Assembly: GCF_004358325.1 (NCBI RefSeq)
Contig: NZ_CP037940.1
Location: forward strand, 1,426,001-1,490,000
Reading direction: 5' to 3'
Origin: Periweissella cryptocerci
Lineage (GTDB): Bacteria; Bacillota; Bacilli; Lactobacillales; Lactobacillaceae
Length of the DNA stretch: 64,000 nucleotides
Below are positions 8,618-19,704 of the stretch, piece by piece. The notes beneath the pieces are model-generated. The model was not told the origin of the DNA and did not search any database. It was given only the letters and a program-made list of their open reading frames with translations. The position numbers were made by a program, and so were the translations under genes. Every line of letters begins with the position of its first letter. The first letter of the stretch is position 1.

Positions 8618-9238
8618 TCAAGCGTGCCGGCCAAATCCTTCATTACCACCTTTTTCAAGGTCACCAGTGTAAGTTGGATAACTAGTTTCAGCAATCAACT
8701 TTTCATATTCATTATCAAGGCGACCCGAAAACTCCGTGCGGTTACTAAAACTTCCGAATCGATCAAGCTCCAAGTCGTCGACGAGGTTCACTTGTTCATG
8801 GAGCTTGCTGTGCAATAAATCAAGACTCAACATCGGATTATTATTCAGGATAACGAGATTCGGTTGTTCAATCCGCTCAATCGAAAACACTGTACTATAT
8901 ACATTCCGCAGCCGACCACCACCATTAACATAGTTACGCACAACACCAACATGCATCGCTGCAATATCCTGATACCGTACCGCGAGTTTTTCTGTATCAT
9001 CCGCTACCACACGAATACTGTCCTGATCAAAAATCACCGTATTTTTCAGTTGGATATCCTTCGGTTGCATCCCATTAAACACCCGTACCACACTGTAAAC
9101 TAAGTGCCCCGCTTTATTCGACTCCATACCATACTTTTTTCCATCAAGTTGTACGTTGGCATGAAAGAAGCGTGCATCTTCCAGCGCTTTACTTAAATTT
9201 TGGGTACTTGGTTCTTTAAAAATTGGTCCATTAATCAT
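8618..9238 (-). CDS. Member A of an unrecognised paralogous family in the bacteriocin island
   Basis: The 206-residue protein has no signal peptide or membrane segment. It shares the central signature of four other proteins in this cluster: here IAAMHVGVVRNY, followed by an R-x-T/V-x-F beta-strand and a stretch ending DDLELDRFG. It diverges most at both ends; the N-terminus carries an extra segment and the C-terminus is glycine-rich (EKGGNEGFGRHA). A good ribosome binding site (GGAGGGG) precedes the ATG. A perfect cre consensus lies about 80 bases upstream. The alternation of short strands with a C-terminal helical part suggests a small beta-rich fold such as a PH-like domain. Role unknown; immunity is one possibility. 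Confidence 0.7.
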   Translation of the reverse strand: MINGPIFKEPSTQNLSKALEDARFFHANVQLDGKKYGMESNKAGHLVYSVVRVFNGMQPKDIQLKNTVIFDQDSIRVVADDTEKLAVRYQDIAAMHVGVVRNYVNGGGRLRNVYSTVFSIERIEQPNLVILNNNPMLSLDLLHSKLHEQVNLVDDLELDRFGSFSNRTEFSGRLDNEYEKLIAETSYPTYTGDLEKGGNEGFGRHA

Positions 9239-9406: not shown

Positions 9407-9982
9407 TTAATTTTGTTCACCCGTCAAAGTGTAGCTTTTTACGCGTGTCAAAAAGGGCGTAGCTTCTGCTAATGTTTCAAATCCTCGCTCATTAATTTTC
9501 TCAACTAATTCACGTCCCGCTAGGTTACTATCAAACTTTTTTAACAATTTAAGTTCGTCTACAACCGGATAATGTGTAGCAAGTTGCAATACCTTTAACG
9601 CCAATAAGCTAGTTTCGTTCATAAAATAATAATGGTCATTTTTCGTTTCAACTTCTAAGTAAGTAAAAAAATGATCTTCCGGTTCGTGAATTAATCCCGC
9701 GCTAATACCTTTCCTACGCACCCAACTAACGTGTAATCCAACGATTTCGTCCGCTGCAATATTTTTAAACGTCTCATTATTCGCATTCAAAATCGAAATT
9801 GTATCGACCCCAATTTCCAAAACCCCCTTTGCTGGTTTAGTGTTGAATATCGATTTACTATTGTGCTTTGAGTTTAATGGATACAATTCACCGCTCACCG
9901 TCACATCAATGTCCGTTAATTTATCGTCATCGTTCAGATAGTACACTGTACCATTTTTTAATACATCTTCAATTGGTGTCAT
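9407..9982 (-). CDS. Member B of the unrecognised paralogous family
   Basis: A 191-residue cytosolic-looking protein. Family features in order: an N-terminal VYYLNDDDKLTDIDV segment with a following YPL-x-x-KHN motif, a GVLEIGVDTI strand, the signature IVGLHVSWVRRKG near residue 83, an aromatic strand HYYFMN, and the C-terminal helix region YPVVDELKLLKKF. It is most similar to member C. ATG at 9982 follows AAAGGTG, and a perfect cre consensus overlaps the likely promoter 20 bases upstream. No known family was recognised. Confidence 0.75.
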   Translation of the reverse strand: MTPIEDVLKNGTVYYLNDDDKLTDIDVTVSGELYPLNSKHNSKSIFNTKPAKGVLEIGVDTISILNANNETFKNIAADEIVGLHVSWVRRKGISAGLIHEPEDHFFTYLEVETKNDHYYFMNETSLLALKVLQLATHYPVVDELKLLKKFDSNLAGRELVEKINERGFETLAEATPFLTRVKSYTLTGEQN

Positions 9983-10350: not shown

Positions 10351-10920
10351 TCACATTGGTATTCTCTTCATTCGTTCAATGAAATCCGTACCCTCAGTCA
10401 ATTTGTCAAAACCAAATTTTCTGACAAGATCACTCAATTCACCACTTGTAGTCGCCACTGCAAATTTAGTTTTTAAACCTAGCTCATCAACCACTGGATA
10501 ATTTACATCCAGCGCCAATAACTTCATGGCTAAAATAAGCGACATATTCACAAAATGGTAACTTCCGTTTAACGTTTTCAACTCAATAAATGTTCGATAA
10601 TTATCCGTTGGCAGTGAAATGTATGGGACGCCATTACCAGATACTTCACTAACCAAACTAACATGTAACTCAATAATGTCTTCATTTTTAAATGATAAAA
10701 ATAGCTCATCATCTGATTTAAGTATATCAATACCACATTCTGTAAATTTCAATAAACCTACTACTGGTTTAGGCTTCCCAAATGCTACCCACTTACCATT
10801 ATGTTTCGTATGCAATGGATAGTTAGTTTCATCCAAACTAACATCAATCTGTGTTAGTTTTTGCTTGTTATTAGGATAGTACACTACGCCGTTCACTAAA
10901 ATATTCTTTATGTTTGTCAT
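10351..10920 (-). CDS. Member C of the unrecognised paralogous family
   Basis: The 189-residue protein aligns with member B along its whole length: VYYPNNKQKLTQIDV, then YPLHTKHNGKW, then IIELHVSLVSEV (the family signature, with the Arg replaced), YHFVNMSLILAMKLL and YPVVDELGLKTKF. ATG at 10920 was chosen because TTGAGGAATG precedes it and it matches the MTNI/MTPI starts of its relatives. It lies directly downstream of the pediocin-like bacteriocin and its immunity gene, probably in the same transcript. Confidence 0.75.
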   Translation of the reverse strand: MTNIKNILVNGVVYYPNNKQKLTQIDVSLDETNYPLHTKHNGKWVAFGKPKPVVGLLKFTECGIDILKSDDELFLSFKNEDIIELHVSLVSEVSGNGVPYISLPTDNYRTFIELKTLNGSYHFVNMSLILAMKLLALDVNYPVVDELGLKTKFAVATTSGELSDLVRKFGFDKLTEGTDFIERMKRIPM

Positions 10921-10958
10921 GTTCATTCCTCAAAATTAATTATTAACCTGCATAATAA

Positions 10959-11255
10959 TCATAATGTTGCGGTAAATCCAAACATCATGCCATTGTTATT
11001 AGATGAGTGAGCCAAGATGGTTAATTCTTTAAAGGCAGCGTGTCCTTCATCAGTTAAAGAAAATTTTTTCTGAAAAATTAAGGGATTGATTTGCTTAACA
11101 AATTGCAGTAGTAGCACGTGTGGTTCATTTTTTTCGTTATCAAGCTTGGCAAAAGTTTCTTTAATTAATTCTTTTGCTTCATTATTGTCACCAGCTAACG
11201 ATTTGTAAATTGTTGATAGCAATTTTTTTGCCTGATCGTTGATATTATTTTTCAT
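10959..11255 (-). CDS. Bacteriocin immunity protein, class IIa type
   Basis: A 98-residue protein with no membrane segment and predominantly helical composition. Length, the LLSTIYKSLAG start, and the FSLTDEGHAAFKELTILAHS segment (compare FTAEENKVLAAINELAHS of the pediocin immunity protein) support the class IIa immunity family, a four-helix bundle acting from the cytosol. It starts 20 bases after the pediocin-like structural gene with its own GAGGTG ribosome binding site, which is the standard order of such operons. Confidence 0.75.
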   Translation of the reverse strand: MKNNINDQAKKLLSTIYKSLAGDNNEAKELIKETFAKLDNEKNEPHVLLLQFVKQINPLIFQKKFSLTDEGHAAFKELTILAHSSNNNGMMFGFTATL

Positions 11256-11275: not shown

Positions 11276-11488
11276 TTAGTAGGCGTGCCCAAGACTATTC
11301 CCGAATGCTCCAAGGATACCTTGAGCGACACCACCCCAATCCACACTAACTTTACCATTAGCAGAAACATGAACGCCATTAGGGTAAGTTTTTGAATTTG
11401 AGGATTTCTTTTTCTTTCCCCCATCAATAGATGCTAATTCCTCTTTTTCAATTTTAGTGTATTTCATAGCCAATTCGTCCAATGCCAT
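11276..11488 (-). CDS. Pediocin-like bacteriocin precursor lacking the disulfide cysteines
   Basis: The 70-residue precursor has a double-glycine leader (MALDELAMKYTKIEKEELAS then IDGG). The predicted mature peptide is 46 residues, starting KKKKSSNSK and then KTYPNGVHVSANGKVSVDWG counted from the last Lys. This copies the pediocin box YGNGV-x-C-x-x-x-x-C-x-V-x-W-G, but Gly is Pro in YPNGV and both conserved cysteines are Val. The C-terminal half is hydrophobic and Gly-rich, ending SLGHAY. It should be cleaved and exported by the C39 transporter encoded upstream. ATG at 11488 follows GGAGGG; an earlier in-frame ATG at 11509 lacks a signal. Confidence 0.85.
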   Translation of the reverse strand: MALDELAMKYTKIEKEELASIDGGKKKKSSNSKTYPNGVHVSANGKVSVDWGGVAQGILGAFGNSLGHAY

Positions 11489-11554
11489 TTTTATTTTCCC
11501 TCCGTACAAACCTTCTAAAAAGCAATTTCTTCGTGTTGACAGTTTGTACCACTA

Positions 11555-11827
11555 TCATCGAATTAATTCATCAACTGTTATCTCAAAAAAATCAGCCATC
11601 TCAATTAATATATCAATTGATGGCGTTCGTACACCACTTTCATAATGCGAAATTGCAGAACGCGCGAGATTCAACTTTTCGGCTAATTCAGTTTGTGACA
11701 TATTAGCACCTTGTCGTAGGCGCTTAATATTCTTACAAATATTTCGTCCATCCCAAATTGGGTTGCCTGCCACCTCATCTTTTTCCGACAATTCATGCCG
11801 ATGTAAGTTTTCAAAATTTTCTTTCAT
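11555..11827 (-). CDS. XRE-family regulator with a leader-like N-terminal extension
   Basis: A 90-residue protein. From about residue 28 it is a typical HTH_3 domain: IKRLRQGANMSQTELAEKLN, the recognition helix LARSAISHYESGVRTPS, then IDILIEMADFFEITVDELI. The 25 residues before it (FENLHRHELSEKDEVAGN) resemble a degenerate double-glycine leader and align with the extension of the other HTH protein at 16083. ATG follows GAGGGA. It sits between the HlyD gene and the bacteriocin gene, so it probably regulates this cluster. The extension is unusual for such short regulators. Confidence 0.8.
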   Translation of the reverse strand: MKENFENLHRHELSEKDEVAGNPIWDGRNICKNIKRLRQGANMSQTELAEKLNLARSAISHYESGVRTPSIDILIEMADFFEITVDELIR

Positions 11828-11855: not shown

Positions 11856-13220
11856 TCATTTATCAAGTAACTTATCCTTATAATAGTTGAAAAAAGTCTT
11901 CTTGCCGGTAATCACAACAAGCTTTCCTTCTAATCCATACCTTAAATGCGTTAATTGTTTTTTTTCAATCCGGGTCGTTGCCACCACTTTGAATACATTT
12001 CCCTTAGAAGTCGCTGTTGGTGCACTGGCAATTGATTGAATCTTGCCTCGTAAAATTAATGGTTTCGGTAATGATTGATACAAGCTGAGTCGTACTGATT
12101 GCTCATTCTTTAAATTAACTACATCAGCTACTGAAACATACGCTACCATACTAATTTTTGTCTGATCCTTTAGTATTGGGTACAACTCTGCGATAACGCT
12201 CCCAGCGGGAATCATTTGTTGCCCTTTAACTTGTTCATTCTCATGAATAATCCCTGGTGCTGGCGCAACAACTGAATTTTGGTAATTTTCATTATGTTGT
12301 ACTTTTAGTTTTGCTTGCAATTGTTCAAGATTTGCACTTAAAGTAGTTTGTTCCTTACTTGCCGCCAACAGCTGTTCCGACTTCAATGAAGCTAGTTTTG
12401 CAGTCAAATCATCTGACTTATCAGCTTTATCAGCGATACCAGCCACCTGAACTTGGTAACTTGCCTTAGTATCCTGTAGTTGGTCAATCTGTTGTTGGAC
12501 GCCACTAACAGTCGTCGCTTTCAACGCGGCACGATCGTGTTTGGCTGTATTACGTATTTGTTGCTGATATAGCTTGAAATTAGTCTTTAACGAACTACTT
12601 TTAGCTAATACATTTTTATTACTCTTAATTGACTGCAAGAGTAACCGATAGTCATCAATTTTTGCTTGATATCTTTCTAATTGCGCATTAACTTTGCCTT
12701 TAACTTTAGCTGAACTCTGATTTGCTTTATCTATCTGGGTATCACTTTGTGTTTGTGCCGACTTCAATAGTTTAACCTGAGCTAAGTAATCATCTAACAA
12801 GCTTGAATATCCAAATTTGTCAGCGTTTGTAAACGTATTCGTATCGGTTTTTAAGCCTGTTTGTAATAATTCCAGTTTGATTTCTTGCTGCTTCAAATCT
12901 GATAATTGTTCATTCAGCAGTGTCGTTTCACTCACAGCATTTTTAGCGTTATACGTGAGTAACACTGTCCCCTTTTTTACAACTTTATTATCCGCTAAAT
13001 TATTATTAACAATTGGATTACTGCTGGTTGATTGAATCGTGCCAATTACCCGTGTTGGCTGCAATTCCCCCGTTGCTTTAACCACAATTTCTTTCTGACC
13101 AAACAGTGAGAAACCGACAATTAAAATAACAATTAGCAGTATTGGTACAATAATCAATGTCGAAAAATTTTGATAACGGCGGTGATAGAATTCAGCACTC
13201 TCTAATAATTTTGGATCCAT
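11856..13220 (-). CDS. HlyD-family bacteriocin secretion accessory protein
   Basis: The 454-residue protein has a short cytosolic start, one membrane anchor (about residues 20-42, LIIVPILLIVILIVGFSLFG), a biotinyl-lipoyl-like segment, a long helical coiled-coil region (about 90-300) and a second lipoyl/beta-barrel part. This is the layout of LcnD/MesE-type accessory proteins, which work with C39 peptidase ABC exporters to carry double-glycine bacteriocins across the membrane and wall. It starts 9 bases downstream of the ABC transporter gene. Confidence 0.9.
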   Translation of the reverse strand: MDPKLLESAEFYHRRYQNFSTLIIVPILLIVILIVGFSLFGQKEIVVKATGELQPTRVIGTIQSTSSNPIVNNNLADNKVVKKGTVLLTYNAKNAVSETTLLNEQLSDLKQQEIKLELLQTGLKTDTNTFTNADKFGYSSLLDDYLAQVKLLKSAQTQSDTQIDKANQSSAKVKGKVNAQLERYQAKIDDYRLLLQSIKSNKNVLAKSSSLKTNFKLYQQQIRNTAKHDRAALKATTVSGVQQQIDQLQDTKASYQVQVAGIADKADKSDDLTAKLASLKSEQLLAASKEQTTLSANLEQLQAKLKVQHNENYQNSVVAPAPGIIHENEQVKGQQMIPAGSVIAELYPILKDQTKISMVAYVSVADVVNLKNEQSVRLSLYQSLPKPLILRGKIQSIASAPTATSKGNVFKVVATTRIEKKQLTHLRYGLEGKLVVITGKKTFFNYYKDKLLDK

Positions 13221-13229
13221 TGTATTCCC

Positions 13230-15381
13230 CTATTTATTAAATAAATCATAATAGAAACCATGGTTTGCCATTAAATCAGCATGTGAACCTTGCTCAATCA
13301 CGCTACCTTTATCCATGACTATCACTTTCTCTGCACGTTCGGCAATTGTTAATCGGTGTGCAATGAAAATAATTGTTTTATCTGTTAGGTTCAACAAATT
13401 ATCCATAATTTTCTTTTCAGTTAGAACATCAAGGTTACTAGTTGACTCATCAAAGATAATCACCGGTGCCCCTGTAAGAATTGCCCGGGCAATCGCAATT
13501 CGTTGTTTCTGACCACCGGACATGCCACTAGACTCAGATAATTCACTATCGTATTTTAATTGCATTGCCTCAATGTCGTCACGGATTTCAGCGAGTTCCA
13601 CAGCGTGCTTAATATCTTCATCGGTTACACTTGGCTGAGCTCCCAGTGTAAGATTCTCCATGATCGTACCGGTAAAAATAAATGGTTGTTGCGGAACATA
13701 ATTCACGTATTGGCGAATTTGTTTCTTATCAACATCAGCAATATCATTTCCATTAATTAATACTCGTCCACTATTTGGTTGAAAAAAATTAACAAGTAGC
13801 TTAATTAAGGTCGTTTTACCAGATCCACTAATTCCGACTAATGCCACTTTCTCTCCCTGATTAATTTGCGCGCTGACATCATTCAATGTGAGTTTGCCAA
13901 ACCCATAATTAAAGCTAATATTTTCAAAGACAATATCACCAGCCAAATTTTTAGGTGTTATTGGTGCTTGTTTAGTTTTGAATTCTGAATCGACCAGATA
14001 AACTTCATTTAGTCGATTATTAGCGACTTTAGCTGCCTGTAATTTTGTCTGTAAGTTAATAATTGTTTGCAATGGATTAGTGAAATATGCTAACAACGCA
14101 TTGTACGTTACTAGTTCCCAAATACTGATACTACCTTTCATTACTAACTGTGCCCCGACCCATAAAATAACTACGTTTAAAATCAATTCCATCCCATCTT
14201 TAATTGCAGTTTGAATAAGGGTGGCTTTTTGATATTTGAAAGATTTATCTAGTGTTTCGACAAACTCTCGATCAATCTTGGTGTAACTGGCCGCTTCACT
14301 GGTTAATGATTTTATCGTTTCAATCCCATTGATATTTTCAATAATTGAAGAGCTTAACATTGAATTACTCTGCATCACATCATTATTCATTCGCTCAAAA
14401 GGCTTCATAAACAATAGAATGATTGCTGCATAAACTGGAATAGAGACTAGGGTAATTAAAAACAACTTCATATTCTGGACAGCTAGGACTGCGCCCACAA
14501 TGATTAAAATCCATACATCTAAGAACAATGACAACATCGTACTAGCCAATGCATCAATGATTGAATTAGCATCCGTAAATCGTGAAATAATTTCACCAGT
14601 TCTCCTAGTGGCAAAAAAAAGACATTGGCAATTCAAAAATGTGTTTAATGTACGACAAAATAACGTCAATCGACAAACGTTGTCCCATTACCGTTAATAA
14701 ATAATTTTGCGCAAACGTTAAAATTTGCTGAATGATGTACGCTACAATCAACCCCATTGAAATAATACCTAAGGTGCTCTTCATGGCGTTTGGAATGAAA
14801 GAATCAATAATCCCTTGTAGGAAATACGAGCCAATAATACTGATAATTGTGACTAAGACTGAAGCGATAATGATGTTAACAACTAACTGGCGTTGTTTCA
14901 TTAAAATTGGAATAAAGGAAAGTAGCGAACCTTTCGATTCACTCGTAGGTTTATACTCTGGTGTCGGCGCAATAAATAACGCCACGCCTGTCCATTCAGC
15001 TTCAAATGTATCTCGTGGTAACTTTGTAATTCCTACGGTATCATCCGGATCGGCAACTAGCACAGATTTTTTGTACGCCTTAATTACAACATAATAGTGC
15101 GGAGTATCTCCATTTTTTATCACGTGAGCAATAAACGGATATGGTATATCATTCATCTCGAATAACGACATGTCAGCACGTACCGCTCGTGTTTCAAAAC
15201 TTAAATCTTCAGCTGCTTTCACAATCCCTAGTGCAGTTGTTCCCTCCATATCTGTCTTTGCAAGTTCACGTAGATGCGCTAGTGACACGATAGAACCATA
15301 TGTTCTGATAATCATGGCTAATGCTGCAACACCACAATCACGTTCATCAATTTGAGGAATTAGGATAAATTTTTTGAACAT
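13230..15381 (-). pseudogene. C39 peptidase bacteriocin ABC exporter, frameshifted in a T8 tract
   Basis: Two frames together encode a complete exporter of about 716 residues. The first (from 15381) has the C39 cysteine protease domain: DERDCGVAALAM with Cys16 and the His of TPHYYVVI. The first membrane segments follow, stopping at LPMSFFCH near 14605. The second resumes with FFATRRTGEIISRF, more membrane segments and a full ATPase: Walker A GISGSGKTT, signature SGGQKQR, Walker B VIIFDEST. The break is in a run of eight T (minus strand, about 14613-14620); seven T would restore one frame. It would cleave leaders after GG and export the peptides of this cluster. It may be phase-variable, truly broken, or a sequencing error. 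Confidence 0.85.
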
Positions 15382-15433: not shown

Positions 15434-16027
15434 TTAGAATGCGGTACCTAACATTGTCATGTATTCTGGATAATTAGTATTTTTGATAATATCTACGTAA
15501 TTTTTATCAAAATAATTTTGTAGCATCCTCTCATCAAATGTCTGTGAGATTGTTTTTAGATTTAACGGATCTTCTACTTTAATTCCATCAAATACTTTGT
15601 TATTTACAATTAGTACAGCCAGGCTAAGTGAGTGACTTACAAAATAATATTCCTTATCGCCCAAATTGAAGTAGATAAATGTCCAGTATTTATTATCTCC
15701 AAAGAGAAGTGGCCCACCGTGACCAAATGTCCGAAATATTCCAACTTCAATCGATTCAATATCAGAATTATAAAATTTATCAAAAATTTCACTAGTTTCG
15801 TCGTAGAGCGATACGACATCATTTTCAATCTTTACCAATCCAGATACTTGAGAGCTTAATGTCTTCATGTAAGTGTAATCAATATATTTTCCAATTTTGT
15901 TTCCATCCTTTTTAGGGTACAAAATACCATCAATATCAAAAATCATAAGAGACAAATTTGTTTGACTTTTCCCAGCGATATTAGCAAAATTTACGATCCT
16001 AGTTGTATCAAAAATATTAACTTTCAT
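15434..16027 (-). CDS. Member D of the unrecognised paralogous family
   Basis: A 197-residue protein, more diverged and more AT-rich than members B and C. Family landmarks are a DIDGILYPKKDG segment, a V-x-L-Y strand, the signature IESIEVGIFRTFG, the aromatic strand KEYYFVSHSLSLAVL, and a C-terminal helix ending NYPEYMTM. ATG at 16027 was chosen because AAAAGGAG precedes it. A cre-like site lies about 50 bases upstream. It is located between a leader-HTH gene and the ABC exporter, in the same direction. Confidence 0.65.
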   Translation of the reverse strand: MKVNIFDTTRIVNFANIAGKSQTNLSLMIFDIDGILYPKKDGNKIGKYIDYTYMKTLSSQVSGLVKIENDVVSLYDETSEIFDKFYNSDIESIEVGIFRTFGHGGPLLFGDNKYWTFIYFNLGDKEYYFVSHSLSLAVLIVNNKVFDGIKVEDPLNLKTISQTFDERMLQNYFDKNYVDIIKNTNYPEYMTMLGTAF

Positions 16028-16073: not shown

Positions 16074-16087
16074 TGCAAGCGCTTACA
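16074..16087. promoter_or_regulatory. cre-like site upstream of family member D
   Basis: TGCAAGCGCTTACA matches TGWAANCGNTNWCA with one mismatch (C at the first W). It overlaps the last codons of the HTH gene. Confidence 0.5.
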
Positions 16088-16397
16088 GAAAGCTCTGAAA
16101 GCCCACGCTTGCATCATTTAATGCTAGCAAAATAGATGTTCTATCCCCCAACACTAATACGTCGAGGGAAATATTGACTACTTGACTAATTGTAACAACC
16201 AAATCAATTGAAGGTTCACGAATTCCCCGTTCATATTTGGACAATAGTGCTTGATCAACGTCAATCTCCTCTCCAAATTGCTCTTGAGTGAGCGTTAACG
16301 CATTTCGAATGAGGCGCATATTCTCGCCTAACGAGCCTCCTGAAATATAACTCAGTTCGGAAAGACTGATATTTTCAAACTTATCGAATATATCCAT
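16083..16397 (-). CDS. Double-glycine leader fused to an XRE-family HTH domain
   Basis: A 104-residue protein. Residues 1-21 read MDIFDKFENISLSELSYISG followed by a second G, a textbook double-glycine leader (hydrophobic residues at -4, -7, -12 and acidic/Ser-Leu pattern). Directly after GG comes an HTH_3 domain: ENMRLIRNALTLTQEQFGEE, helix DQALLSKYERGIREPSIDL, then VVTISQVVNISLDVLVL, and a short hydrophobic tail. AAGGAAGG precedes the ATG. The protein could be a DNA-binding regulator that docks on the peptidase domain of the exporter, or one cleaved by it. A chance fusion of a bacteriocin leader to a regulator is also possible. It resembles the HTH protein at 11555. Confidence 0.8.
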   Translation of the reverse strand: MDIFDKFENISLSELSYISGGSLGENMRLIRNALTLTQEQFGEEIDVDQALLSKYERGIREPSIDLVVTISQVVNISLDVLVLGDRTSILLALNDASVGFQSFL

Positions 16398-16430: not shown

Positions 16431-16946
16431 CTATATATACTTAGCATAAATTGTACTTTTGACTAAGTTTTGATATGAGTACTCATCTATTTGTTTCATT
16501 AAATGGCGTAAATCAGTACTTACATTGAACTTTTCAATTAACTTTAAATCATCAATTATTTCATATTGTGAGTTAAAATTAGCTAACGTGAACGATAGGA
16601 TCATTGAATGAACAAGAAAATAATACGATTGAGTATACGTTCTTAGTGTTATCATGGTTCGGTACATTTTTCGCCCGTTTAAATAGTGTTGTCGTATTAT
16701 TCCCACATGTATTGCTTTAATATCTTCAGAAAAAATAGTCCTAGTTTTTTTTTCATCATACTGAATTTTCACTTCTGAACGTTCAAATTCTATTGTGCTC
16801 ATTTTGCGATTTGGCAAATCACCAGTAATTTTTTTCAATTCTGGATAATGCGTATGCCCAATTATGGCATCAACTCTCGTTAATTGAGAGTTTGTATTTA
16901 TTTCATACACTGGATTCCACTTAATTAAATCGTTTAATTTGTCCAT
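16431..16946 (-). CDS. Member E of the unrecognised paralogous family
   Basis: A 171-residue protein. ATG at 16946 was chosen because GGAGGAGCT precedes it, and the start MDKLNDLIKWNPVYEINTNS then aligns with members B and C. Other landmarks are LTRVDAIIGHTHYPEL, the signature IKAIHVGIIRQHYLNGRKMY, the strand TQSYYFLVHSMILSF, and the C-terminal DDLKLIEKFNVS. It follows the glycosyltransferase gene after a terminator and precedes the leader-HTH gene. A likely promoter element, TTATACTGTG, lies near 17030 and resembles one upstream of the peptide gene at 18853. Confidence 0.72.
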   Translation of the reverse strand: MDKLNDLIKWNPVYEINTNSQLTRVDAIIGHTHYPELKKITGDLPNRKMSTIEFERSEVKIQYDEKKTRTIFSEDIKAIHVGIIRQHYLNGRKMYRTMITLRTYTQSYYFLVHSMILSFTLANFNSQYEIIDDLKLIEKFNVSTDLRHLMKQIDEYSYQNLVKSTIYAKYI

Positions 16947-17334
16947 AGCTCCTCCAAAATCAACTGAGAAAATACTGCCAAATGCATTCATTATTGACAA
17001 TCGCTAGCAAAAATCATATCAACACGCACAGTATAAGTCTCTTATGTACTTAAGACAAGTACATATTGTATTTTTTTACGCTTAATGTAAAAGTGTTGTT
17101 GGTTTTTTTGCACTTTGCTAATCTTTTGTGCTATTTCCAATATAACCACTACGTGAAAAGACTAAATAAAATACTTTAAATATAAAATGGCACCTACTTT
17201 TAAAATCTGCGTGAATGCAGAATAAAAGTAAGTGCCAATAATGCATATTCGTATGAGGTCGAGTCAAGCGTTAACGGTCAAGCGAAAACTATTTGTTAAA
17301 TCTTTGCGACGTGCTGGTACACGTTATCGTTTCT
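16947..17334. other. Intergenic region with terminator and promoter
   Basis: It holds the terminator at 17188-17237 and AT-rich sequence. A palindrome-like TGTACTTGTCTTAAGTACA (minus strand, near 17050) sits just upstream of the probable promoter of member E. No gene was seen. Confidence 0.5.
17188..17237 (-). terminator. Terminator after the glycosyltransferase gene
   Basis: Long stem TGGCACTTACTTTTATTCTGC with its complement and a six-base loop; on the minus strand it is followed by a T-rich tract. Confidence 0.8.
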
Positions 17335-18693
17335 TTACGTTAAAAATTCTTCCCAAACCCCGAGAAATCCCAATGCTCTTGAGTCTGTAATCGTTGTTTT
17401 TAATTGTTTTGCCTGTTCAATTTTCCCTTGCATAAGATATAACCGGATAATTAGAGCAGTTATGATATCTGTATTTTCTTGAGAACTACGGTATGCTGCT
17501 TCAGGATCTAAAGCAGCCATAGACGCGACTAATTCAGTAGTTAAATTCATAGCGTCTACTTCTAAAGCATGGAATTTCAAGGAGAATATAGAAAATAATA
17601 TGGTATAGTTTTGCGGGAAAAGCTTATGCGATTCCTCACTAATTCGTAACGCATCAGTGATTTCGTTTTGCGAAATCAAGTATGAAATATATTTTTTTAA
17701 CAAATCTAATAAGTAATCGGAATGGTTCACGTTGTAAACTGAAAATGGAAGATCCTTATTATTAGTAATTGCTTCATATATCGATGGAATGTACTGTTCA
17801 CCTAAACTGGTGTAATTTAACATTTCTGAGTTCAATAATGATAACAGCCTAATATTATGAGGTTCGTCCTTCAGCATCTCCAACAATAATTTATTATAGC
17901 GTTCCTTTTTGTTGAATTTTTCCTCCTGACCTTGAGTTCGTCCCATGTTTACAACGTTTATTTTACTTTCAACTTTGTATATTCCATTGATTTCTGCATC
18001 GGTTTGGTCAATGCTTGGAAGTATTTCTTCATGAACCTTCCCCACAAAACGGGTACCATCTTTCACTCTAATAATGCGGTCAACTTTTGCAAAGGTTTCC
18101 GTCCCATATGCAGTTGTATGGAGCTGTATTACAAGGTTACTTTTAGCTGCATACATATAATCAACCATATTTATAATTATATGCAATAATTTCTTAGACA
18201 TTGGTGGTGTCATTGTTTCATCTGAATCAATAAATAAAATCCAATCCGCATTATCCGAAATTAAATTAATCATGTAATTACGCATTTGTGCATAATCTTC
18301 AATCCAATTTTTTTTAAATAATTTAATGGATGGGTTTACATTTATTTCCGATTTGACAACATCAACTGTTTTATCAGTGGAACCAGTATCTAGAATATAT
18401 ATTGAATCCACAATGTTTGATACACTATTAATCATTTTGCCAATATTGTCTTCTTGATTTTTAACCATAGTGGCAACCGTCAAATTTAATTCATTATTCG
18501 CCACATAATCTATAAGATTTCCCACGTATTCATTAATAGATTGTTCTTTCGGCAAAATATCAGCAAACTGTTCATCAATATATACAAAATTAAGCGCCTC
18601 AATGAGTAAATTTGCGGTAATTTGTTGGTTATAAGAAAAAGACTTCTGACCAGAAGCCAAAAGCCCTTTCAAAAATGTGTTTGTATTTGGCAC
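17335..18693 (-). CDS. SunS-like family 2 glycosyltransferase of a glycocin-type locus
   Basis: The protein (452 residues from the preferred GTG start) has a GT-A family 2 domain: LNLTVATMVKNQEDNIGKMI, then SIYILDTGSTDKTVDVV, the metal-binding FIDSDE, and FVGKVHEEIL. A helical repeat-like C-terminal part follows. Order, spacing and length match SunS, which adds a sugar to the bacteriocin sublancin. GTG at 18693 comes two bases after the stop of the double-glycine peptide gene, so coupling is likely. The open frame extends to GTG 18786, but that would overlap the peptide gene, and the first ATG would remove the first beta strand. The likely substrate is the adjacent peptide, via Ser/Thr since it has no Cys. 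Confidence 0.82.
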   Translation of the reverse strand: MPNTNTFLKGLLASGQKSFSYNQQITANLLIEALNFVYIDEQFADILPKEQSINEYVGNLIDYVANNELNLTVATMVKNQEDNIGKMINSVSNIVDSIYILDTGSTDKTVDVVKSEINVNPSIKLFKKNWIEDYAQMRNYMINLISDNADWILFIDSDETMTPPMSKKLLHIIINMVDYMYAAKSNLVIQLHTTAYGTETFAKVDRIIRVKDGTRFVGKVHEEILPSIDQTDAEINGIYKVESKINVVNMGRTQGQEEKFNKKERYNKLLLEMLKDEPHNIRLLSLLNSEMLNYTSLGEQYIPSIYEAITNNKDLPFSVYNVNHSDYLLDLLKKYISYLISQNEITDALRISEESHKLFPQNYTILFSIFSLKFHALEVDAMNLTTELVASMAALDPEAAYRSSQENTDIITALIIRLYLMQGKIEQAKQLKTTITDSRALGFLGVWEEFLT

Positions 18694-18694
18694 A

Positions 18695-18853
18695 CTAGTT
18701 ACCAGACCGTTCGTTAAAAAGTAAACCGGCAACGCTGACAATATCACGTGCAAGTGCAAGGGCACCTGTTGGCTTCTTTTTACCACCTACTGTTTGTTGC
18801 AACTCTACATTTGAAAGTTCAGTGTAGAGTGAAGCAAAATCATTCATCTTCAT
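18695..18853 (-). CDS. Double-glycine bacteriocin-like precursor peptide
   Basis: 52 codons after GGAGGAT. Leader MKMNDFASLYTELSNVELQQ then TVGG; predicted mature peptide of 28 residues, KKKPTGALALARDIVSVAGL then LFNERSGN. It is cationic at the start with an amphipathic middle, and it contains no cysteine. The glycosyltransferase gene follows immediately, so the peptide may be O-glycosylated on Thr or Ser, but it could also be an inducing peptide. Export by the C39 transporter at 13.2-15.4 kb is likely. Confidence 0.8.
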   Translation of the reverse strand: MKMNDFASLYTELSNVELQQTVGGKKKPTGALALARDIVSVAGLLFNERSGN

Positions 18854-19333
18854 AATCCATCCTCCAAAATAAAAACTAGAAATTACTAACGACAATAACA
18901 ATTTGAATCAGTTTCGTTCCTTTTTCATTGGAACAAGTACAGTATAAAGCCGTTCATAACACTAATTCCATGACAACATGTACTATGAATCCCAAAATGC
19001 CAAATTGTCATATTTTTTCTAGCAATAGTATTTTCTAACAGGAACTAACCAAATTATTTTATTTTTTTGATGGTGATTAGCTAAGCACACGGAGTTCGTA
19101 CATAAGACGACATCTATTCATCTTAAGAAACAAGCTACAATTTTATTTATTGTCGCATTTCTATTAATTTCGAGACTGAAGTATTCAAATTAATATCGTA
19201 CCCACAAACATCCATAACAACGCTACGTTTATGCAACCAGTAGTTCCTAGACATCGCGTTAAATAGCACCGTATACTTGGCACCGTTGGATTGATAAAAT
19301 TTATCCAAACAAGCATGAAAGGAGAATACTCAT
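18854..19333. other. Divergent promoter region between two bacteriocin operons
   Basis: 480 bases without a convincing gene. On the minus side a probable -10 (TATACT near 18940) serves the peptide gene at 18853. On the plus side a direct repeat at 19100-19130 and a palindromic TTGGATTGATAAAATTTATC near 19290 precede the two-peptide operon. Confidence 0.5.
19100..19130. promoter_or_regulatory. Direct repeat, period about 21: candidate LytTR box
   Basis: ACATAAGACG at 19100 is followed by ATCTTAAGAA at 19120, sharing TAAGA at a 21-base period. It resembles the pairs at 7070, 21147 and 24045 and lies about 200 bases upstream of the two-peptide bacteriocin genes. Confidence 0.35.
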
Positions 19334-19534
19334 ATGTCGAATAATATGGATAGGTTTACTACTTTGGGCTCTGCTCAATTGTCAGTCATTTATGGTGGCA
19401 GCAAGAAGGATTATAATTTTTTCTATAACATCGGTAAATCGGTTCGTAAAGTCGCAAAAAAGCCACTAATCCAGATTGGTGGTTTCCATCTGCTTCATAA
19501 TTCACAAATATTCAGAGGGACTATATTTTGTTAA
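19334..19534 (+). CDS. Two-peptide bacteriocin precursor, first peptide
   Basis: 66 codons with AAAGGAG before the ATG. Double-glycine leader MSNNMDRFTTLGSAQLSVIY then GG. The mature part is 44 residues, SKKDYNFFYNIGKSVRKVAK then KPLIQIGGFHLL and a hydrophobic tail ending FRGTIFC. It is strongly cationic and amphipathic. The stop overlaps the next precursor gene. Class IIb (two-peptide) assignment rests on the adjacent second precursor and the downstream CPBP gene. Confidence 0.8.
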   Translation: MSNNMDRFTTLGSAQLSVIYGGSKKDYNFFYNIGKSVRKVAKKPLIQIGGFHLLHNSQIFRGTIFC

Positions 19535-19704
19535 ATAACTTTAAGTCAATGACACATGAAGAATTGCAAGAAGTTAGTGGTGGTAAATTTGGTTTTAGTA
19601 TTAGCATTAATATCTCTGGAACCTTCCATCAAGTTGAAGATGGTATTGATGGCTTCGTAGCCGGCGTTACTGGTAAGAAACGCCACTATCGTAAAAACAG
19701 CTAA
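19528..19704 (+). CDS. Two-peptide bacteriocin precursor, second peptide (TTG start)
   Basis: 58 codons from TTG at 19528, preceded by AGAGGG. Leader LLNNFKSMTHEELQEVSGG (first residue Met in practice), then 39 residues beginning KFGFSISINISGTFHQVEDG and ending KKRHYRKNS. The gene overlaps the preceding precursor by 7 bases and shares TAATG with the CPBP gene. A GxxxG-like spacing (GIDGFVAGVTG) fits class IIb peptides, which pair through such motifs. Easily missed because of its non-ATG start. Confidence 0.75.
   Translation: MLNNFKSMTHEELQEVSGGKFGFSISINISGTFHQVEDGIDGFVAGVTGKKRHYRKNS

Follow-up and report, generated by a model that had tools for sequence, protein, structure and literature searches.

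Double-glycine export leaders on small XRE regulators of Lactobacillaceae suggest direct control by C39 exporters or their peptidases

We analysed a 64,000-nucleotide stretch of Periweissella cryptocerci DNA (hereafter the window; NZ_CP037940.1, positions 1,426,001 to 1,490,000), in which a small gene at 16083..16397, here called regulator 1, encodes a double-glycine leader joined to a helix-turn-helix (HTH) regulator of the XRE family. Proteins of this build are referred to below as leader-HTH proteins. Judged from the sequences, an export leader on a regulator suggests direct control of that regulator by the pump or by the pump's protease. The reading that we hold, with moderate confidence, is that each leader-HTH protein is an XRE regulator that serves as a substrate for the C39 peptidase encoded in its gene cluster, usually part of an ATP-binding cassette exporter (C39-ABC), and that cleavage of the leader would gate DNA binding, possibly together with export.

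Regulator 1 (minus strand, 104 residues) is confirmed as a double-glycine leader joined to a complete XRE domain in one open frame, with its start before the leader, as an earlier note on this DNA, made from the letters alone, had proposed. The 21-residue leader (codons 16397-16335), KFENISLSELSYISGG, carries F at -15, I at -12, L at -7, I at -4 and G at -2 and -1; residues 28-81 match HTH_3 as a complete domain (51.9 bits; Pfam cut-off 23), followed by a short tail. A ribosome-binding site, AAAGGAAGG, lies 6 nt 5' of the leader ATG. We scored the N-terminus on a leader matrix for which 40 double-glycine peptides from related loci were the training set, finding a score of 25.1 against a mean of -10.5 (standard deviation 5.0, maximum 2.2) for the N-termini of 255 long proteins that served as controls, with the caveat that the training peptides were picked by leader pattern from the same loci; a chance leader was rejected on this comparison. 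Five of the 28 leader-HTH rows did not score above all controls, namely G283 (2.1), G020b (-0.9), P0021 and P0025 (both of a GS type with extended N-terminal regions) and G356, for which the start had been set too far upstream. No bacteriocin-type core follows the leader of regulator 1: the core is HTH_3, and no bacteriocin family was among the Pfam and TIGRFAM-type matches. An AlphaFold model gives a confident XRE fold after the leader, matched by the P22 c2 repressor (E 6.7e-4, TM-score 0.83 of target), and places a low-confidence helix (predicted local distance difference test, pLDDT, about 56) at residues 12-18, which are leader positions -10 to -4. In the substrate of the exporter PCAT1 the leader helix spans the same positions (PMC6959990).

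The conserved residues of the leader are those that a C39 peptidase reads. In a chosen set of 26 aligned leader-HTH proteins (17 clusters at 80%), position -1 is Gly in all 26, -2 is Gly in 22 and Ala in four (AG being atypical for C39 substrates), -4 is I or V and -7 is L, M or I in every protein, -12 is I, L, M or V in 25, and -15 is F or Y in 22. The hydrophobic residues at -4, -7 and -12 are all present in 25 of the 26 proteins and in 17 of the 17 clusters, and the positions between -12, -7, -4 and the glycines are variable. PCAT1 and LahT read -12, -7, -4 and GG (PMC6959990 and PMC10885120), so that by sequence the conserved positions are the C39 recognition code. The earlier note had made its reading depend on conservation of the leader among orthologues; the key residues are indeed kept in 26 homologues, while close orthologues in which to follow them were not found. 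Searches of the protein database, plasmid records and species genomes returned no close relative of regulator 1: among six protein candidates it found itself and one weak relative (P0002, which has no leader), the 12 plasmid records were all below 60% identity, and the species genomes gave five distant XRE loci.

Similar proteins recur within one family of bacteria. A first sequence search with regulator 1 gave matches in 89 of 100 genomes, and among 29 loci read besides that of the window only one (L016) carried a leader; a profile of these two members then uncovered the family in Leuconostoc, Latilactobacillus sakei and other Lactobacillaceae. With a 26-row leader-HTH profile at E 1e-19, 31 of 397 Lactobacillaceae genomes matched, and a leader was read in 19 of them, spanning six of 40 genera (g1, g2, g4, g8, g17 and g19). 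The repeated architecture that the earlier note had proposed is therefore supported, with conserved leader positions. Eleven of the other 12 matching genomes were read and have no leader, G058 lying outside the reading, and five further loci picked from the matches were all leader-bearing. At the same threshold one of 299 genomes matched in a class-level search, the window's own, and an order-level search of 395 genomes gave a leader in five of 30 loci read (G000, G057, G175, G020 and G126), all of them Lactobacillaceae. Leaders joined to HTH domains of another type would escape a profile based on XRE domains. In a tree of the HTH parts (67 columns) the leader-HTH proteins form a group of 21 and a group of eight with one leaderless protein, while one more stands (L072, 7671-7958) among ordinary XRE proteins; at this poor resolution they may have had either one origin or several. 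Their XRE relatives include ImmR and DdrO, ImmR being the top sequence match of the profile in the PDB. Several genomes of genus g4 (L078, L079, L081, L082 and L180-L187) also encode small XRE proteins of a distinct family (...LMHESGFNI.KNLK...), which score near the leader-HTH proteins and have no double-glycine leader.

The genes around leader-HTH proteins link them to C39 exporters, as the earlier note had surmised, through a conserved gene order and a stand-alone form of the peptidase. The order C39-ABC exporter, HlyD-type accessory protein, leader-HTH gene is found at L069, L072, L118, L190 (HlyD in two pieces), L191 and L192, and in the window for a second regulator described below; a double-glycine peptide gene usually comes next. 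At 19 leader-HTH loci, a strict double-glycine peptide lies within 1 kb in 13 and a piece of C39 within 8 kb in ten. If either a C39 piece up to 8 kb away or a strict double-glycine peptide up to 3 kb away is counted, 18 of the 19 loci have such a neighbour, compared with none of nine control loci (leaderless XRE loci from an earlier search). The exception, L070, has an AG-ended peptide nearby, lies in a genome without a C39 match and encodes a regulator with an unrecognisable C-terminus. Among 19 Leuconostoc genomes, 13 have C39 matches and 13 have leader-HTH genes, and a C39 match is present in every one of the 11 whose leader-HTH gene is intact, although in one of these it is only a fragment.

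Several loci show further features. At L075 a C39 fragment (12824-13060) ends in LDVEINDLIF, which is also the end of the leader-HTH protein P0020; a deletion running from an exporter gene into a leader-HTH gene would leave such a scar. Near the Leuconostoc leader-HTH genes there recurs an XRE regulator, alike from locus to locus and about 245-285 residues long (L038 8860-9594, L068 8740-9531, L148 6606-7397, L150 6860-7651, L080 2284-3072, L118 6671-7519 and L075 4654-5445). A pediocin-like (YGNGV) precursor stands right after the leader-HTH gene at L069 (3984-4184). On the L. curvatus plasmid AP018701 a leader-HTH protein is annotated as hypothetical, and the same plasmid encodes a precursor with YGNGV, which we take to be the class IIa motif, a short double-glycine peptide, a kinase, a response regulator, SunT and PlnH; on the L. 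mesenteroides plasmid CP088903 an AG-type member follows the accessory protein.

In three Leuconostoc genomes (G366, G344 and G304) the neighbour of the leader-HTH gene is a stand-alone peptidase. There a C39 gene of about 145-160 codons, ending where the ABC part would begin, starts no more than 100 bp after the leader-HTH gene, forming a two-gene cassette (L073 9989-10765, L074 9388-10164 and L077 9484-10262) that adjoins a divergent XRE regulator of about 245-285 residues. In all three the adjacent peptidase is a C39 and not a metallopeptidase, metallopeptidases elsewhere having been outside the search. The stand-alone C39 is the sole strong C39 match in each genome, and its Cys, His and Asp, which we take to be the catalytic triad, line up with the ComA peptidase domain at L073 and at the other two loci. 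Bacteriocin_IIc gave no match at E 0.1 in these genomes, whereas six of seven other genomes searched had one. Between G366 and G304 the HTH has the lowest ratio of nonsynonymous to synonymous substitution rates (dN/dS), 0.04, against about 0.11 in the leader and about 0.2 in the C39. Given the sole strong match, the aligned residues, the missing Bacteriocin_IIc match and the low dN/dS, the lone peptidase most plausibly serves the leader-HTH regulator.

The second regulator of the window (regulator 2; 11555..11827, minus strand) sits in the slot between the HlyD protein and a double-glycine peptide. The earlier note had described its N-terminus as a matching but degenerate leader and had used it as proof of repetition. 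The match holds in part, in that the slot is a conserved one and the leader-HTH profile spans the leader region (E 4.7e-20, positions 5-86); against it, the N-terminus scores -5.7, inside the control range, and aligns as a leader only with a three-residue insertion and GN for GG. As evidence of repetition it is the weakest case, and we read it as a conserved-slot member with a decayed leader. In G020 the leader of a third regulator ends in CG, and the exporter gene about 2 kb away contains an internal stop. On these two cases only, loss of the leader may accompany loss of the exporter; regulator 1, which keeps its leader beside an interrupted exporter, runs counter to this.

In the reading that we hold, the leader would be the means by which the export machine acts on the regulator. 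The C39 domain would bind the leader and cut after the second Gly, leaving an XRE protein with a near-natural N-terminus. The cut would end the regulator's control of its operon; that it starts this control is less likely. Where the exporter is complete, the XRE domain released by the cut may also be pumped out, so that the level of the regulator would report export capacity: when no exporter is free, uncut repressor would build up and precursor synthesis would fall, and when exporter is free, the repressor would be removed and synthesis would proceed. With a stand-alone C39, control would be by proteolysis alone. The direction that we favour, a repressor inactivated by exporter or peptidase, is the least supported step. 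We put forward only tentatively the fuller version in which these transcription factors would themselves be cargo of bacteriocin C39 exporters. Each exporter would then clear the cytoplasm of the repressor of its operon, thereby tying bacteriocin synthesis to free export capacity, and some Leuconostoc would have reduced the device to a two-gene switch of leader-HTH protein and lone C39.

Two alternatives deny the leader any function. If the XRE protein began after the glycines, the apparent leader would be untranslated upstream DNA, and ordinary XRE genes of other families show that the artefact is real, since in them a Shine-Dalgarno sequence read in frame often mimics GG shortly ahead of the genuine start Met, by a few codons (for example L104, L113, L114 and L115, of which L104 passed the leader pattern). 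The glycine codons of regulator 1 themselves spell AGGAGG, 16 nt upstream of an ATG at codon 6 that is the sole in-frame start within eight codons past GG and has a Shine-Dalgarno match of at most 3 nt at the usual spacing. Across the family, however, 20 of 27 leader-HTH genes have no ATG, GTG or TTG within eight codons after the leader, 23 of the 25 rows with a correctly placed start have 4 nt or more of Shine-Dalgarno match ahead of the leader, and -12, -7 and -4 are conserved at the protein level. These counts also dispose of the doubt, raised in the earlier note, that the true start might lie after GG; on them we reject a wrong start for the family and regard it as very improbable indeed. 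Alternatively, a bacteriocin leader may have been joined in frame to an XRE gene by accident and have persisted as an N-terminal tail with no effect on an otherwise ordinary repressor. Placement of the leader-HTH proteins in at least two groups of a poorly resolved tree, a leader that changes faster than the HTH in several pairs, and the recombination shown by the scar at L075 would all fit such a fusion. We nevertheless think it improbable, because the conserved positions across the 17 clusters are the ones read by C39, the leader dN/dS is about 0.1 between G366 and G304, and the association with C39 or peptide genes is 18 of 19 against 0 of 9.

The remaining alternatives grant the leader a function of another kind. 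It could tether the regulator to the C39 domain of the exporter without being cut, real precursors displacing it so that free regulator would report precursor load. For such docking the conserved -4, -7 and -12 could suffice, and several loci encode the regulator alongside the exporter; yet docking would need neither the Gly at -1 nor the Gly or Ala at -2, each present in 26 of 26, and the stand-alone C39s keep their catalytic residues. The invariant Gly at -1 in particular favours cleavage over mere docking, which we consider unlikely. Cleavage might instead activate, if the leader blocked dimerisation or DNA binding and C39 freed an active regulator, whether activator or repressor. This would be compatible with the stand-alone C39 and with a cut that leaves the XRE domain with about its natural start; in the model, however, the leader is predicted to be flexible, at low confidence, and we judge activation rather improbable. 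Finally, the protein might be mainly an exported cargo, its XRE domain acting outside the producer or being discarded and its DNA-binding fold incidental. Its size does match that of a known cargo of a peptidase-containing ABC transporter (PCAT; PMC6959990). Against this stand the HTH as the best conserved part (dN/dS 0.04 in the pair above) and C39 genes that have no ABC part, and we find the idea quite improbable.

Gating of the regulator by C39 cleavage, the reading that we prefer, also has a number of observations to contend with. Cleavage, binding, export and DNA binding of leader-HTH proteins are all predictions, and a folded XRE domain may resist export. Members of the set were partly picked with leader-bearing profiles and a leader regular expression, which makes the conservation counts not blind. 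Two Leuconostoc genomes, G240 (a whole C39-ABC gene) and G152 (fragments), have C39 matches and no leader-HTH gene at the threshold used, two others, G126 and G386, have leader-HTH genes with a lost C-terminus and no C39, and in G175 leaders persist with only a fragment of C39. The stretches examined for L038, L068, L070, L076, L080, L120, L148, L150, L188 and L189 contain no C39 gene, and in G057, G356 and G257 the C39 lies about 15-16 kb away, so that the exporter would act in trans. In other pairs than G366-G304 the leader outpaces the HTH (dN/dS 0.52/0.80 versus 0.12/0.93 for G318-G020b; 0.38/1.0 for G257-G020a). The window's own exporter is interrupted at a run of eight T, and its candidate operator, described next, is weak.

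Ahead of the probable operon of the window, a perfect 9-bp palindrome at 17043..17065 overlaps a promoter-like -35 (17058), making it a weak candidate operator of the cluster: it was equalled by 14 of 300 shuffles, and promoter-like sites in the region are no commoner than in shuffles. When 14 upstream regions were searched for operators, nine gave palindromes reached by at least 50 of 300 shuffles; the others included G376b (0 of 300), the window itself and G257 (20 of 300), and repeats at G318 and L158 (0 of 300 each) are terminator-like.

Leftward from about 17.0 kb, the window cluster encodes a 189-residue protein, the leader-HTH regulator 1, a second member of the 190-residue family, the C39-ABC exporter, the HlyD protein, regulator 2, a double-glycine peptide, an EntA_Immun-like protein and three more members of the 190-residue family. 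The exporter (15381-13230, minus strand) shifts frame at the T run (14613-14620), which may be a real interruption, phase variation or an assembly error. As sequenced, the gene is split into a frame with the C39 peptidase domain and the start of the membrane part (14605..15381; PF03412, 146.7 bits), ending early after the run, and the rest in another frame (13230..14669). A second C39 gene with an uninterrupted frame of 719 codons is found elsewhere in the same genome. Next on the minus strand comes the HlyD-type bacteriocin export accessory protein (11856..13220), which resembles the accessory proteins of L149 and L153; the Pfam HlyD_3 identification was made on the L072 protein of the same slot. 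The double-glycine bacteriocin-like peptide (11276..11509, minus strand; leader KYTKIEKEELASIDGG) matches PF10439 (E 3.1e-4) and a bactofencin-like family (E 1.5e-3), both below cut-off, and the EntA_Immun-like immunity protein (10959..11255, minus strand) matches PF08951 at E 9.5e-4, also below cut-off.

The family of about 190 residues has five copies (8618-9238, 9407-9982, 10351-10926, 15434-16027 and 16431-17000). The last of these (minus strand) is the first gene of the probable operon, as judged by spacing, and the copy at 15434..16027 (minus strand), whose start we placed at 16027, directly follows regulator 1. A model of the family is beta-rich (pLDDT 71); four members scanned gave no Pfam match over cut-off, no fold in the PDB matched at E 0.001, and the family was unmatched in the other annotated leader-HTH loci. 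Three more double-glycine peptides lie beyond the operon, at 19334..19534 (plus strand; leader RFTTLGSAQLSVIYGG) and 18695..18901 (minus strand; leader LYTELSNVELQQTVGG) and at 19528..19704 (plus strand; leader NFKSMTHEELQEVSGG; TIGR01847, 18.1 bits, cut-off 15.7). A gene resembling the peptide S-glycosyltransferase SunS (17335-18786; TIGR04195, 84.7 bits, far under the cut-off of 350) has a listed start that overlaps a double-glycine peptide gene, possibly part of a glycocin system.

Leader-HTH proteins share features with several known systems. Like the substrates of C39-ABC exporters (class II bacteriocins, ComC-type pheromones and CtA of PCAT1), they have the leader positions and, in several loci, an operon with exporter and HlyD; unlike these, their cargo is a DNA-binding XRE domain and not a secreted peptide. 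In size they are much like the CtA precursor, which has a 24-residue leader and a 66-residue cargo (PMC6959990). A small XRE regulator with a specific protease partner is also the arrangement of ImmR/ImmA (ICEBs1) and DdrO/IrrE. The leader-HTH partner, however, is a C39 cysteine peptidase with a predicted cut at the N-terminal leader, whereas ImmA cuts ImmR in its C-terminal linker and inactivates it (PMC8960796). FlgM and type III secretion regulators such as LcrQ and ExsE are akin in principle, since they too bear the signal recognised by the export apparatus, so that expression follows export capacity. They serve type III systems, as anti-sigma factors or accessory factors; a leader-HTH protein has a DNA-binding fold, by which it is not an anti-sigma factor, and belongs with a C39-ABC exporter. 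CylR2 (PDB 1utx), the small XRE regulator of the enterococcal cytolysin, is likewise a small XRE regulator of a bacteriocin-type cluster and has no leader, the match beginning at residue 2 of its 66-residue chain. Literature searches aimed at leader-HTH regulators found no description of them, in keeping with the earlier note, which knew of none. The principles are known singly (C39 leaders, protease-gated XRE repressors and export-coupled regulators) and, as far as we found, their union in one small protein is new.

To our knowledge, the known pheromone circuits do not explain how bacteriocin producers match precursor synthesis to export, and a leader-bearing regulator would be a direct sensor of that load. 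The family also carries a warning for leader-based genome mining, which can take such regulators for false bacteriocins. Beyond this, stand-alone C39 peptidases may have a task in the cytosol, and the leader-HTH proteins may represent a further class of regulators gated by a protease.
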